Assembly (NCBI RefSeq): GCF_018070045.1 | Contig: NZ_JAGPYK010000002.1 | Coordinates: 62,001 to 126,000 of the forward strand | Reading direction: 5' to 3' | Length of the DNA: 64,000 nucleotides | Source of the DNA: Micromonospora sp. U21 | GTDB taxonomy: Bacteria; Actinomycetota; Actinomycetes; Mycobacteriales; Micromonosporaceae | Shown: positions 2,570-6,505 of the stretch, piece after piece | How the letters are laid out: each line of letters opens with the position of its first letter | Numbering within the stretch: the stretch's first letter is position 1 | The notes under the pieces: generated by a model | Told to the model about the DNA's origin: nothing | Seen by the model: the letters and a program-made list of their open reading frames with translations, nothing else | The model's database searches: none | Translations under genes and position numbers: made by a program

Positions 2570-3055
2570 TCAGAACTCCTGGTACATGACGTGCAGGCCG
2601 ACCCGGCCGAGGGTGGGATGACGGAACGCCCTCGGCACCGTGCCGACCACCTCGAAGCCCTCCCGGCGGTACAGCTCCACCGCCGACCGGTTGCACTCCA
2701 CCACGACGTTGAATTGCATGCCGGCGTACCCCCGCTGGCGGGCCCAGGCCAGAGCGTCACGGCACAGCGCGGTGCCCACGCCCCGGCCCCGCACATCGGC
2801 GGCGACCATGAAGCTCGCGGTGGACACGTGCGCGCCGGGCCCGGGCCGGTTGGTGCCCATCTTCGCGGTGCCGAGCACCCGCTCGCCATCCACCGCGACG
2901 ACCGTGCGGCCCGGCGGGGCCTCCGCCCAGATGCCGTACGCCACGTCGGCGGTCATCGCCGGGTCGAAGGGGAAGGTCTCCCCAGCCAGGATCACTTCCT
3001 CGACGATCGGCCAGACCTGCGACCAGTCCTCCGCCACGAACTCTCGAATCAGCAC
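2570..3055 (-). CDS. GNAT family N-acetyltransferase
   Basis: A 161-aa cytosolic acetyltransferase of the GNAT fold. The acetyl-CoA pyrophosphate-binding motif A is VRGRGVGTALCRDA near residue 90, followed by motif B ending in YRREGF. The substrate could be an amine, an amino acid or an antibiotic. The start is GTG 3055, and no clear Shine-Dalgarno precedes it. It lies only 9 bp after the stop of the broken phosphotransferase gene and is on the same strand. It was probably the third gene of a LacI-kinase-acetyltransferase operon and may now be cut off from its promoter by the insertion at 3200-4531. Confidence 0.85.
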   Translation of the reverse strand: MLIREFVAEDWSQVWPIVEEVILAGETFPFDPAMTADVAYGIWAEAPPGRTVVAVDGERVLGTAKMGTNRPGPGAHVSTASFMVAADVRGRGVGTALCRDALAWARQRGYAGMQFNVVVECNRSAVELYRREGFEVVGTVPRAFRHPTLGRVGLHVMYQEF

Positions 3056-3199
3056 CGGCGCAGGCTACGGGCGGTGATCCGGCCGGACAACCGGTTTGTC
3101 GAGCGCGGCGAGTTCCGCGCCCAGCAGCGTCGCGAGCCGGGCGTGCCGCCGCGGATGGCTGCCCGCCGTCATGCCACGGCTGGGCATCTCCACCGTCAT

Positions 3200-4531
3200 C
3201 GGTGTCGCGGCGTGGATACCCCTGCCTTCACGCGGGGGAGAAACGCCGCTCCCCTCAGGGATGGTCTTACGTGAACTACTGGTAAAATGTGAGGCATGGG
3301 TGAGGTGGCGAAGCGGGCATACAAGTACCGCTTCTATCCGACCCCAGGGCAGGCCGATCAGCTCAACCGCACCTTCGGATGCGTCCGCAAGGTGTACAAC
3401 CTGGCGCTGGATGTGCGCACCCGCGCGTGGGCGGTCGACCGGCAGCGCAGCACCTATGTGCAGTCCTCGGCGTGGCTGACCGAGTGGAAGCGCACCGAGG
3501 AGCTGGTGTTCCTCAATGAGGTCAGTTCCGTGCCGTTGCAGCAGGCGCTGCGGCACCTGCAAGCCGGGTTCGCGGCGTTCTGGGGCAAGCGGTCGCGCTA
3601 CCCGCGGTTCAAGTCCAAGCGCAAGTCCCGGGCGTCGGCGGAGTACACCCGCTCGGCATTCCGCTGGCGCGACGGGCAGCTCACCCTGGCCAAGATGGAC
3701 GCCCCGCTGACCATCGTGTGGTCCCGGCCCCTGCCTGACGGCGGCGAGCCGTCCACGGTCACGGTGTCCCGCGACCCGGCCGGTCGGTGGTTCGTGTCCC
3801 TGCTGGTCGAGGATCCCACCGTGATGCCGCTCCCGCCGGTCGACACGGCGGTAGGGGTGGACGCGGGCATCACCAGTCTGCTCACCTTGTCCACCGGTGA
3901 AAAAGTCACCAACCCGCGCCACGAGCGCGCCGACCGACGCAAACTGGCCAAGGCGCAACGCACTATGGCCCGCAAGGCCAAGGACTCCGCCAACCAGGCC
4001 AAAGCCCGCCTTGCGGTGGCCCGCATCCATGCCCGCATCGCCGACCGGCGGCGGGATCACCTGCACAAGCTGTCGACTCGACTCGTCCGCGAGAACCAAA
4101 CGGTCGTGATCGAAGACCTCAGCGTGCGCAATATGCTGCGCAACCACAGTCTGGCCCGCGCCATCTCCGACGCGGCGTGGACACAACTGCGCAGCATGAT
4201 CGAGTACAAGGCCGCCTGGTACGGGCGGCAGGTTATCGCCGTCGACCGCTGGCATCCGAGCACGAAGACCTGCTCGGCGTGCGGGCGGATCAACACCGCC
4301 ATGACCCTCGGCGTTCGCGCCTGGACGTGTCCCGGCTGTGATGCCGTGCACGACCGGGACGTCAACGCCGCCAGGAACATTCTCGCCGCCGGGCTGGCGG
4401 AGAGGTGAAACGCCTGTGGAGGGCCGATAAGACCCGACCCGCGAAAGCGGTGAAGGCACGGCCCGGTGAAACAGGAACCCCATCGGGCGACCGAGGGAAT
4501 CCCCGCCCTTCAGGGCGGTGGAGGATGTCAA
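3200..4531 (+). mobile_element. tnpB-only IS200/IS605-type element (IS1341-like)
   Basis: A 1332-bp element whose ends are defined by restoring the interrupted kinase gene, which leaves no target duplication, as expected for single-strand IS200/IS605 transposition. The left end directly follows TCAT (3196-3199) and the right end finishes in TCAA (4528-4531). Subterminal hairpins are present: near the left end around 3219-3240, and CCGCCC-TTCA-GGGCGG at 4503-4518 near the right end. It carries tnpB only; no Y1 transposase (tnpA) is present, so movement would need one in trans. Its length is a multiple of three, so the host frame reads straight through it. A TAAAAT -10-like box at 3283-3288 inside the left end probably drives tnpB. 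Confidence 0.92.
3296..4408 (+). CDS. tnpB: RNA-guided endonuclease TnpB (IS200/IS605 family)
   Basis: A 370-aa TnpB/OrfB protein. All expected landmarks are intact: an N-terminal helix-turn-helix-like region (YRFYPTPGQADQL), the RuvC-like catalytic residues Asp-189 (VGVDAGI), Glu-273 (VIEDLSV) and Asp-355 (HDRDVNAARN), and a four-cysteine zinc finger CSACG...CPGC at 326-348. TnpB proteins cut DNA next to a target-adjacent motif under guidance of an RNA encoded at the transposon right end, which favours retention of the element. Nothing suggests inactivation. The length is slightly below the usual 380-410 aa. Expression probably starts from the TAAAAT box just upstream, with a short or absent leader. 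Confidence 0.93.
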   Translation: MGEVAKRAYKYRFYPTPGQADQLNRTFGCVRKVYNLALDVRTRAWAVDRQRSTYVQSSAWLTEWKRTEELVFLNEVSSVPLQQALRHLQAGFAAFWGKRSRYPRFKSKRKSRASAEYTRSAFRWRDGQLTLAKMDAPLTIVWSRPLPDGGEPSTVTVSRDPAGRWFVSLLVEDPTVMPLPPVDTAVGVDAGITSLLTLSTGEKVTNPRHERADRRKLAKAQRTMARKAKDSANQAKARLAVARIHARIADRRRDHLHKLSTRLVRENQTVVIEDLSVRNMLRNHSLARAISDAAWTQLRSMIEYKAAWYGRQVIAVDRWHPSTKTCSACGRINTAMTLGVRAWTCPGCDAVHDRDVNAARNILAAGLAER

Positions 4532-4551
4532 CAGCAGGTACAGGTGCAGCA
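4409..4551 (+). ncRNA. Predicted omegaRNA (reRNA) scaffold and guide
   Basis: TnpB guide RNAs cover the 3' end of tnpB and the right end of the element and continue into flanking DNA, which serves as the guide. Here the non-coding segment between the tnpB stop and TCAA has a strong hairpin (4503-4518) close to the end. The bases from 4532 (CAGCAGGTACAGGTG...) would be the guide and match the interrupted kinase gene. The 5' limit probably lies inside tnpB and is not defined; the 3' limit assumes a guide of about 20 nt. Confidence 0.5.
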
Positions 4552-5431
4552 GCCGGTAGAGACCGAGTCGGCGGCGGGCCGCGGCGTCCAGCACCAGCGG
4601 CTCGGCGGCGGTAGCCGCGCAGCAGCGGATGCTCGGGCTCGTCCTCGATCCGCCGGAAGAGCAGTGGCGAGACCAGGTCCAGCAGCGGATCGCCGTGCAG
4701 GAACCGTTCGCCGTCCACCAGCCCGCACAGTCGTAGCCGGCCGTCGGGACCGGGCGCGGTCAGCACGTTGCCGTCCCAGCAGTCGAAGTGCAGCAGCGCC
4801 GGGCGGCGCACCTCGTCCAGCACGCCGGCGTGCCGCCCCACCAGCGCGCGCAACCGGTCCGCGGTGACCGGAAGCCGAACGTCCCAGTCGACCGCGTCGG
4901 CGAGCATCGCGTCGAGCATCGCGGTGAACGCCGCCCGCCAGGTCGACCCGCTGGCCCGGTCGCCGTCGTAGCCGAACCTGTCGCCGGTGATCTGATGAAG
5001 CGCGGCGAGAGCCGCACCGAGGTCGTACCGCGCCGGGCCGTCGTCGACCGTCGCGCCGGCCTCGGCCAGCTCGTGCAGCGACCTGCCGGGCAGCATCCCG
5101 GTGACCAGCCACTCGCCGTACGCCGGGTCGGTGCCGTGGTGCAGCACCGGGGGTACGGGCACCTGCGGGGCCTGTTCGGCGACCAGCCGGAAGTAGCGCG
5201 CCTCGGCCGCGCAGAGCCCGCGCTCGTAGCGCAGCAGCCGCGTACCGGCCGGCGGGGCCAGCTTCAGCACCACCCGACGGTCGTCGTCGAGCAGCGCCCA
5301 CCAGACCGTGGCGTACCCGCCGCCGGCCAGTGGCCCGCTCTCGCGTACCCGCGTGCCCGGTCCGAACGACGCGCGGACCAGGTACGCCACGTCGTCCGTC
5401 GTGAGTGGACGCTGCGTCGGGCTGGTCACGG

Positions 5432-6505
5432 TCACGAGCCGGCGGCGCCCCGCCGCGGGCTCGGTGCCGCGCCGGCGGTGCCCTGCACGGCCTGCGGGGC
5501 GGGGCCGGCGGTGTCGCGGCGGACCAGTTCGGCGGGGAGCACCTCGACCCGGGGCGCCGGCGCCTCCACCCCGAGCACCAGGGACATCGCGCGGACCCCC
5601 ATGTCGACCAGGGGCAGCCGTATGGTGGTCAGCGCCGGGGTCACGTCCCGGGCGATGGGCATGTCGTCGAAGCCCAGCACGGAGACCCGCTGCGGCACGG
5701 CTAGCGAACGGGCCCGCAGGGTGGCGAGGGCGCCGATGGCCATCGAGTCGTTGAGTGCGGCGATCGCGGTCAGCTCCGGGTCGGCGTCGAGCAGTCGGGC
5801 GGTGGCCTCTGCGCCGCCGTCGCGGTCGAACTCGGCGTACCGGATTCGCCGCTCGGGCAGGTCGAGACCCTGCTCGGCGAGGGCTTGCCGGAGCCCGGCC
5901 AGCCGGTCGGTGGTGGTGGTGAGGATGCGCGGGCCGGCGACCACGCCGATCGCCCGGTGCCCCAGCTCGCACAGCTCCTGACCGGCCAGGTAGCCGCCGG
6001 CGCGGTTGTCCGGCATCACGGCGTCACCCGAGTGCTCGTGTCGGCCGATCACCGCGACCCGCCCACCGGTCGCCTCGTAGGCGGCGAGCTTCTCGTTGAG
6101 CTGTCGGGTGAACGTGTCGTCGTGGTAGCCGGAGCCGGCCAGGATCAGCGCCGCCACCTGGTGGCCGCGCAGCAGTTCCACGTACTCCAACTCGCGGTCC
6201 GGGTCGCGGTAGCTGTTGCAGATCATCAGCAGCCGGCCCTGGTCGGTGGCGACGCGTTGCAGCCCGCGGGTGATCTCGGCGAAGTACGGGTCGGAGACGT
6301 CGTGCACGATCACGCCGACCGCGCTGCGGTGCGAGCGGGCCAGCAATTGGGCGTGCGCGTTCGGCACGTACTGCAACTCGGCGACGGCCGCGAGCACCCG
6401 CTCGCGCAGCTCGTCGGTGACGGGCTTGCTGCTGCCGTTTATCACGCGGGAGGCGGTGGCGGGCGAGACGCCCGCGCGCCGCGCCACGTCGGACAGGGTC
6501 GCCAT
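5432..6505 (-). CDS. LacI family transcriptional regulator
   Basis: A 357-aa LacI/GalR-type repressor. The N-terminal HTH reads MATLSDVARRAGVSPATASRVINGS, followed by the hinge ending YVPNAHAQLLARSHR. The rest is a periplasmic-binding-protein-like sugar-sensing domain (VGVIVHDVSDPYFAEI through VLGFDDMPIARDV). It overlaps the downstream kinase gene by GTGA, so the two are probably translationally coupled. It diverges from the cupin gene; the palindromic GAAAGCCCTTTC between them is a likely autoregulatory operator. Similar sites before the ABC permease (7719, 7760) and the ThuA protein (18625, 18691) suggest it controls that whole catabolic region. The inducer is unknown. Confidence 0.93.
   Translation of the reverse strand: MATLSDVARRAGVSPATASRVINGSSKPVTDELRERVLAAVAELQYVPNAHAQLLARSHRSAVGVIVHDVSDPYFAEITRGLQRVATDQGRLLMICNSYRDPDRELEYVELLRGHQVAALILAGSGYHDDTFTRQLNEKLAAYEATGGRVAVIGRHEHSGDAVMPDNRAGGYLAGQELCELGHRAIGVVAGPRILTTTTDRLAGLRQALAEQGLDLPERRIRYAEFDRDGGAEATARLLDADPELTAIAALNDSMAIGALATLRARSLAVPQRVSVLGFDDMPIARDVTPALTTIRLPLVDMGVRAMSLVLGVEAPAPRVEVLPAELVRRDTAGPAPQAVQGTAGAAPSPRRGAAGS

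Follow-up and report, generated by a model that had tools for sequence, protein, structure and literature searches.

The 64,000-nucleotide stretch of the Micromonospora sp. U21 genome analysed here (contig NZ_JAGPYK010000002.1, positions 62,001 to 126,000; called the window below) contains, at positions 3200-4531, a TnpB-only IS200/IS605 (IS1341-type) element of 1332 bp with one intact tnpB gene. Comparison with its relatives points, in our opinion with good probability, to an IS605-type TnpB-only element that has TCAT as its target and start codons as its homes, where an outward-facing Shine-Dalgarno sequence in the left end and a stop codon re-made by the right end would keep the neighbouring genes translatable. 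A preliminary description of the window, made from the sequence alone, had already recognized a TnpB element with base-exact ends, and the left ends and empty alleles of relatives support that reading; the start-codon siting and the outward ribosome-binding site point beyond it. What deserves attention is the pattern of the family rather than the focal copy, which lies inside a kinase gene, has no outward Shine-Dalgarno sequence and is an ordinary member of its type.

The ends of the focal element are defined to the base. Joining position 3199 to 4532 gives ...LYRLLHLYLLMTVEMPSRGM in a single frame, as the preliminary description had proposed for the excised kinase gene. The two joined flanks were searched against 151 genomes of the genus and 12 loci were fetched, one of which (L121) is the window itself; the other 11 (L120, L122-L131) all span the junction and have the uninterrupted site, TCAT followed directly by CA, with nothing gained or lost, no target duplication and no different junction. 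The insertion is thus located directly 3′ of a fixed short target without target duplication, as in the IS200/IS605 family. Because all of the 11 empty alleles carry TCAT, this tetranucleotide is host DNA on the left of the element, like TTAC in the case of IS608. The preliminary description had also placed TCAT before the left end and TCAA at the right end, both of which are found there, and had suggested comparing the bases preceding the left ends of relatives. These bases are TCAT and not unrelated tetramers: among 31 BLAST rows starting within the first 12 bases of the element, TCAT adjoins exactly in 30 and is two nucleotides off in one. The rows, which include the window and the second records L040, L041 and L048, represent 28 distinct insertions, and because this comparison was made without looking for TCAT, such unrefined ends are the cleaner test.

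In a larger set of 161 distinct insertions with both ends, TCAT precedes 137 before refinement of the ends and 144 after it, the latter number leaning towards TCAT since the refinement seeks this tetramer within 6 nucleotides. The remaining 17 are preceded by TCAC (four cases; the complement of a GTG start), CTCG (two), GCCC (two) or others (nine), and were left out of the start-codon counts below. In L172, L177, and L178, the tetramer before the element is TCAC, complementary to a GTG start followed by A; these three loci share the same end type but have a diverged middle, BLAST matches being found at the ends only. The right end is TCAA in 153 copies, CCAA in seven and AAGC in one; L179 carries two right ends in tandem, at about 4126 and 4281. 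A match at E 0.001 was obtained in 96 of the 151 genomes of the genus, the window's own included, many of these matches being short or partial, and the host genome (7.47 Mb, 99 contigs) has seven full or partial matches including the focal copy. The closest named relatives are from Micromonospora.

The solved structures closest to the focal TnpB are those of a designed nuclease and of the ISDra2-type TnpB chains 8h1j and 8bf8. The D/E/D positions of the RuvC domain and the four zinc-finger cysteines align with those of ISDra2 TnpB (8h1j), in agreement with the earlier view that both are intact, the D/E/D residues being the catalytic ones. With one query at E 1e-4, no TnpA match was found in 211 loci except the three TnpA loci themselves. 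Since no copy has tnpA beside it, the element is of the TnpB-only kind; IS1341-type elements are this TnpB-only group, and the presence of tnpB, the absence of tnpA and the IS605-type ends place the element in it. A local TnpA partner was thus rejected as a candidate, none being found beside any copy with this query. Three Y1 transposase genes are present elsewhere in the host genome, and their ends look different by eye.

TCAT is the complement of ATGA, that is, ATG followed by A, and most of the insertions are indeed found at start codons. An insertion was assigned to the start class when the left flank, read outward, was coding in the frame of the ATG and the right flank was not; a further 2982 ATGA sites of these loci were classified in the same way. 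By this rule, which rests on open reading frame length and third-position GC rather than on curated gene models, 106 of the 144 TCAT insertions are at a start codon compared with 502/2982 background sites (74% vs 17%). A start codon accompanied by a native host Shine-Dalgarno sequence just beyond the right end was found in 84/144 vs 226/2982 (odds ratio 17, p 1e-50). A smaller earlier set under a stricter rule gave 56/95 against 183/2036. A few target genes occur more than once among the 144 insertions, which form 136 clusters; counting one insertion per target gene, 100/136 are at start codons. In two Micromonospora genomes (L016 and L034), two different left-end types are located at apparently the same orthologous start codon.

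Furthermore, most left ends carry a Shine-Dalgarno sequence directed out of the element. It was scored as at least 4 contiguous bases of AAGGAGGTGA on the strand leading outward, and the focal left-end type was defined by the motif GCGGCG or TCTGGCG, not by a tree. In the non-focal types, 105 of 112 left ends have the motif, mostly as AAGGAG or GGAGGT, at a distance of 4–8 nucleotides, mostly 5–7, from the ATG, while it is found in none of the 32 focal-type left ends, the focal copy included. The mean predicted duplex energy with the anti-Shine-Dalgarno sequence is -8.0 kcal/mol for the non-focal left ends vs -2.7 for shuffled left ends (p 3e-20), and +0.6 for the focal type. The motif may work in translation initiation, and the transcript carrying it would start either within the element or at the promoter of the upstream operon, crossing the element in the latter case. 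In L054 and L081, tnpB is preceded by sites CGAACnnnnGTTCG that resemble LexA (SOS) boxes; as a family feature these were considered and rejected, the full site being present in 2/144 and half sites in 12/144.

In 56 of the 144 insertions, the upstream coding frame runs to the TGA of the right end (TTGA), compared with 126/2860 background sites, so that a former ATGA stop/start overlap is indicated. The stop codon of this upstream frame is thus re-made by the right end, at the cost of only a single altered base in the overlap. Forty-seven of the 56 also have a coding start on the left, against 79/2860 in the background, where starts were scored a little less strictly than for the insertions. 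Since TCAA is also the right cleavage site of IS608, re-creation of the stop may have come about by chance through the pairing code and been exploited by selection afterwards.

When 19 distinct target proteins, most of them cut to 330 amino acids, were searched against NCBIfam, matches above the cut-off with the N-terminus at or near the junction were obtained for gatB, galU, rfbB, argG, D-Ala-D-Ala ligase, and homoserine dehydrogenase; the best matches to biotin carboxylase, P-II, lipoamide dehydrogenase, and HMG-CoA synthase were below the cut-off, and the target protein of L016 had no NCBIfam match. The most telling example is genome G099, which has a single gatB, a gene essential in such bacteria; here the element separates gatB from gatA and supplies a GGAGGT of its own ahead of the ATG. 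Its left end reads ...GGAGGTTTGCG directly followed by ATG. In all of the 20 corresponding loci fetched from other genomes, which include that of the window, the gatA stop is followed by AGGAG or GGAG and then by ATGA without interruption. In 26 of 41 genomes searched at this place the junction is unbroken, and in the other 15 unrelated sequence lies between the two genes; recurrent insertion of the element at gatB was rejected, since the intervening sequence of these 15 genomes has no TnpB. Focal-type elements are found at the start codon of single-copy argG in the window's own genome (L004; G000, contig C34) and in another species (L027; G044), which suggests an old and tolerated insertion without a visible Shine-Dalgarno sequence. 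In three of the first five plasmid copies inspected, the annotated start of the downstream gene coincides with TCAT, and the stop of the upstream gene lies within the TCAA of the right end. The same position of the upstream stop is seen in a more distant plasmid copy (L256), and an annotated LysR gene starts exactly at the left end of an Azotobacter plasmid copy, which has no Shine-Dalgarno-like motif.

The two ends have the organization expected from the pairing code of IS608, in which, according to PMC5934647, the left cleavage site TTAC goes with the guide AAAG and the right cleavage site TCAA with the guide GAAT. The likeness to this arrangement, noted earlier for the cleavage sites, extends to the guides: the right pair of IS608 recurs here unchanged, and the pairing of the left guide with TCAT follows the same rule (Table 1). 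Across the family, the three commonest tetramers just 5′ of the left hairpin are GATA, GAAA, and GAGA (together 51/144) and the commonest 5′ of the right hairpin is GGAA, then T (59/144), although the simple hairpin and guide finder missed or misplaced many copies, so that these counts are supportive rather than exact. They support subterminal hairpins whose guide tetramers fit the cleavage sites, as known for the IS200/IS605 family.

A conserved omega RNA structure is predicted at the right end. The consensus of 25 sequences chosen from the types has 35 pairs, of which 23 show one or more compensatory changes, and the single-sequence fold is mildly better than that of shuffled sequences (z -1.7; 9/200 shuffles as good). 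Sub-threshold Rfam matches were obtained to HgcC (4419-4541) and to RAGATH-18 (4413-4477), the latter with 29.9 bits against a gathering score of 44.9. Nine of the 11 empty alleles carry TCAT followed by the first 16 nucleotides of the predicted guide, three carry it with 19 nucleotides and none with 20, so that a guide of 16 nucleotides would fit the empty site in related species. TCAT may be the target-adjacent motif (TAM) used by TnpB, with a working guide next to the element.

Table 1. Features of the focal element and its surroundings (positions in the window)
Feature	Position	Strand	Basis or remark
TCAT, left cleavage/target tetranucleotide and inferred TAM; host DNA, not element	3196-3199	+	11/11 empty alleles; 30/31 BLAST rows
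Left end, type without outward Shine-Dalgarno; outer stem GCGGCG 3207-3212 / CGCCGC 3244-3249 (by eye), inner hairpin 3219-3238	3200-3295	+	
GATA, probable left guide (GL); T-A, C-G, and T-A pairs with bases 1, 2, and 4 of TCAT	3215-3218	+	IS608 code, PMC5934647
tnpB, 370 amino acids	3296-4408	+	Pfam OrfB_IS605, Cas12f1-like TNB, and HTH_OrfB_IS605 above cut-off; PDB relatives 8h1j/8bf8
Predicted scaffold region of the omega RNA, sharing sequence with the 3′ end of tnpB	4382-4531	+	Covariation; sub-threshold Rfam matches
GAAT, probable right guide (GR), identical to IS608 GR	4497-4500	+	IS608 code as in PMC5934647
Right-end hairpin	4501-4521	+	
TCAA, right cleavage site and final four bases of the element; TTGA on the other strand holds a TGA stop	4528-4531	+	
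Predicted 16-nucleotide natural guide CAGCAGGTACAGGTGC	4532-4547	+	After TCAT in 9/11 empty alleles
Main part of the interrupted APH-family kinase gene, whose tail goes on left of 3199 in a different frame	4532-5432	-	

Based on these observations, the following course of events is proposed. The element would insert as single-stranded DNA directly 3′ of TCAT, chosen through base pairing with the left guide GA[T/A/G]A, and excision would also use the right guide GAAT with TCAA; a Y1 transposase is assumed to act in trans. TnpB with the omega RNA, reading out of the right end into the flank, would then cut the emptied TCAT site, and repair would bring the element back; ISDra2 and related systems provide the basis for this step. 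As TCAT is complementary to ATGA, insertions are most often found at the start codon (ATG then A) of a leftward gene, exactly between its ribosome-binding site and the ATG. There, the left-end Shine-Dalgarno sequence of most non-focal types would serve the downstream ATG and, at overlap sites, the right-end TTGA would re-create the upstream TGA. Both of the neighbouring genes would thus likely stay translatable, so that the insertion is cheap and survives. Probably, survival rather than targeting causes the start-codon bias. We lean, with some reserve, toward the wider view that this is a widespread actinobacterial TnpB family built to be translationally silent, whose TCAT/TCAA ends and left-end Shine-Dalgarno sequence allow essential operon genes such as gatB to be occupied without killing the host.

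Several observations weigh against this explanation. By the rule used, 33 of the 144 insertions are neither at a start nor internal and in frame, and five are internal. The share at start codons is 83/105 for left ends with the outward Shine-Dalgarno sequence and 19/32 for the focal type (p 0.036), a modest difference; as the focal type lacks the sequence in all of its 32 left ends, the sequence is not needed for the bias. The focal copy has neither of the two features proposed for the variant, start-codon insertion and outward Shine-Dalgarno sequence, and the focal-type start insertions, without the sequence, include one at the only argG gene of the window's own genome. No annotated gene starts at the left end in two of the first five plasmid copies and in four of five more distant ones, where one record is not annotated at the site of the copy and the gene table is incomplete. 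In some left ends, judged by eye, the motif seems to overlap partly with the base of the left-end stem, so that structure may explain part of its conservation. Finally, no transposase was found beside a copy among the loci searched.

A rival explanation is that an ordinary TnpB-only IS605 element owes its bias to a TCAT target in GC-rich genomes and to purging of insertions inside genes, and the AGGAG-like motif belongs to a left-end structure recognized by the transposase. The guide code alone would set TCAT, the bias is shared by the left-end type without the motif, the motif-free Azotobacter copy sits exactly at an annotated start, and in some copies the motif seems, by eye, to pair partly with the stem. 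However, the background share of TCAT at start codons is far below that of the insertions, the motif occurs in both AAGGAG and GGAGGT forms at ribosome-binding distance from the ATG, and in the Nonomuraea-type left end CTCCTT appears, by eye, outside the stem. Moreover, without a working ribosome-binding site, insertions at start codons would be expected to be purged like those inside genes. We regard this explanation as unlikely, though deserving consideration.

Far less probable is antisense through-translation, in which the TTG of the right end, overlapping the upstream stop, would start a frame that runs across the element and ends in the TGA of ATGA, coupled to the downstream start. The idea was attractive since TCAT introduces a TGA at frame +1 and the antisense strand has an open frame: among 30 focal-type and 96 Shine-Dalgarno-type copies examined, a full-length antisense frame ending at ATGA is found in 15/18 and 39/66, respectively, of those with the corresponding frame offset. 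Open antisense frames are, however, common in GC-rich genes. This candidate was rejected, since left-end lengths are not conserved modulo 3 (differences are multiples of three in 17 of 45 independent relative pairs, p 0.31), and the right-end TTG was also rejected as a substitute start, since its frame stops after 6 codons in most Shine-Dalgarno-type copies. Removal of the insertion at the RNA level is hardly conceivable here: IStrons are IS elements made harmless by self-splicing (PMC4227781), but no group I or II intron match was obtained in window positions 3000-4800 at E up to 1 or in six relative loci at the gathering score.

At the focal locus, the interrupted gene matches the APH/fructosamine-kinase families and is broken twice, its C-terminal tail, where the element sits, being out of frame with the kinase body; a frameshift independent of the insertion lies near 4600-4620. 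In the right flank, positions 4548-4553 contain three extra bases, a duplicated AGC, absent from all of the 11 empty relatives. They correspond to about guide positions 17–22, the zone where TnpB enzymes cut. They could be an end-joining scar of TnpB cleavage, a source that was considered and set aside because this is one case only, or a product of slippage in the CAGCAG run.

TnpB elements are relatives of the Cas12 ancestors and among the most abundant RNA-guided nuclease genes. The present family resembles IS608 and ISDra2 in its insertion 3′ of a fixed short target without duplication, its subterminal hairpins, its guide-to-cleavage-site pairing and its TnpB with a right-end RNA, and in the case of IS608 the right pair GAAT/TCAA is the same. 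The target is TTAC or TTGAT there and TCAT here, and the focal element has no tnpA; in addition, most relatives here are at start codons, and most non-focal left ends have an outward Shine-Dalgarno sequence. IS1341-type TnpB-only elements share with it tnpB without tnpA and the same organization of ends. In IS607, a TnpB works with a right-end guide RNA derived from RAGATH-18, to which the focal RNA has a weak, sub-threshold resemblance; PMC11061315 gives AGGAG/GAGGG as TAM and an RNA independent of the coding sequence, while TCAT is the inferred TAM here and the RNA region overlaps tnpB. Like IStrons, which combine a group I intron with an IS element, the present transposons would carry a device that makes insertion harmless to the host gene, but the device is RNA splicing there and a proposed restored translation initiation here, with no intron found. 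Among the literature matches listed (titles and abstract openings), there was no report of start-codon siting, an outward ribosome-binding site or TCAT for such elements.

The pattern bears on how TnpB-only elements persist without harming their hosts, a question to which self-splicing of IStrons is one known answer. A replacement ribosome-binding site carried to a start-codon target would, if true, be a second and simpler answer. The pattern further suggests TCAT as the TAM, many gene starts supplying natural guides, and a signal carried by the transposon may be behind the expression of genes annotated downstream of these insertions.
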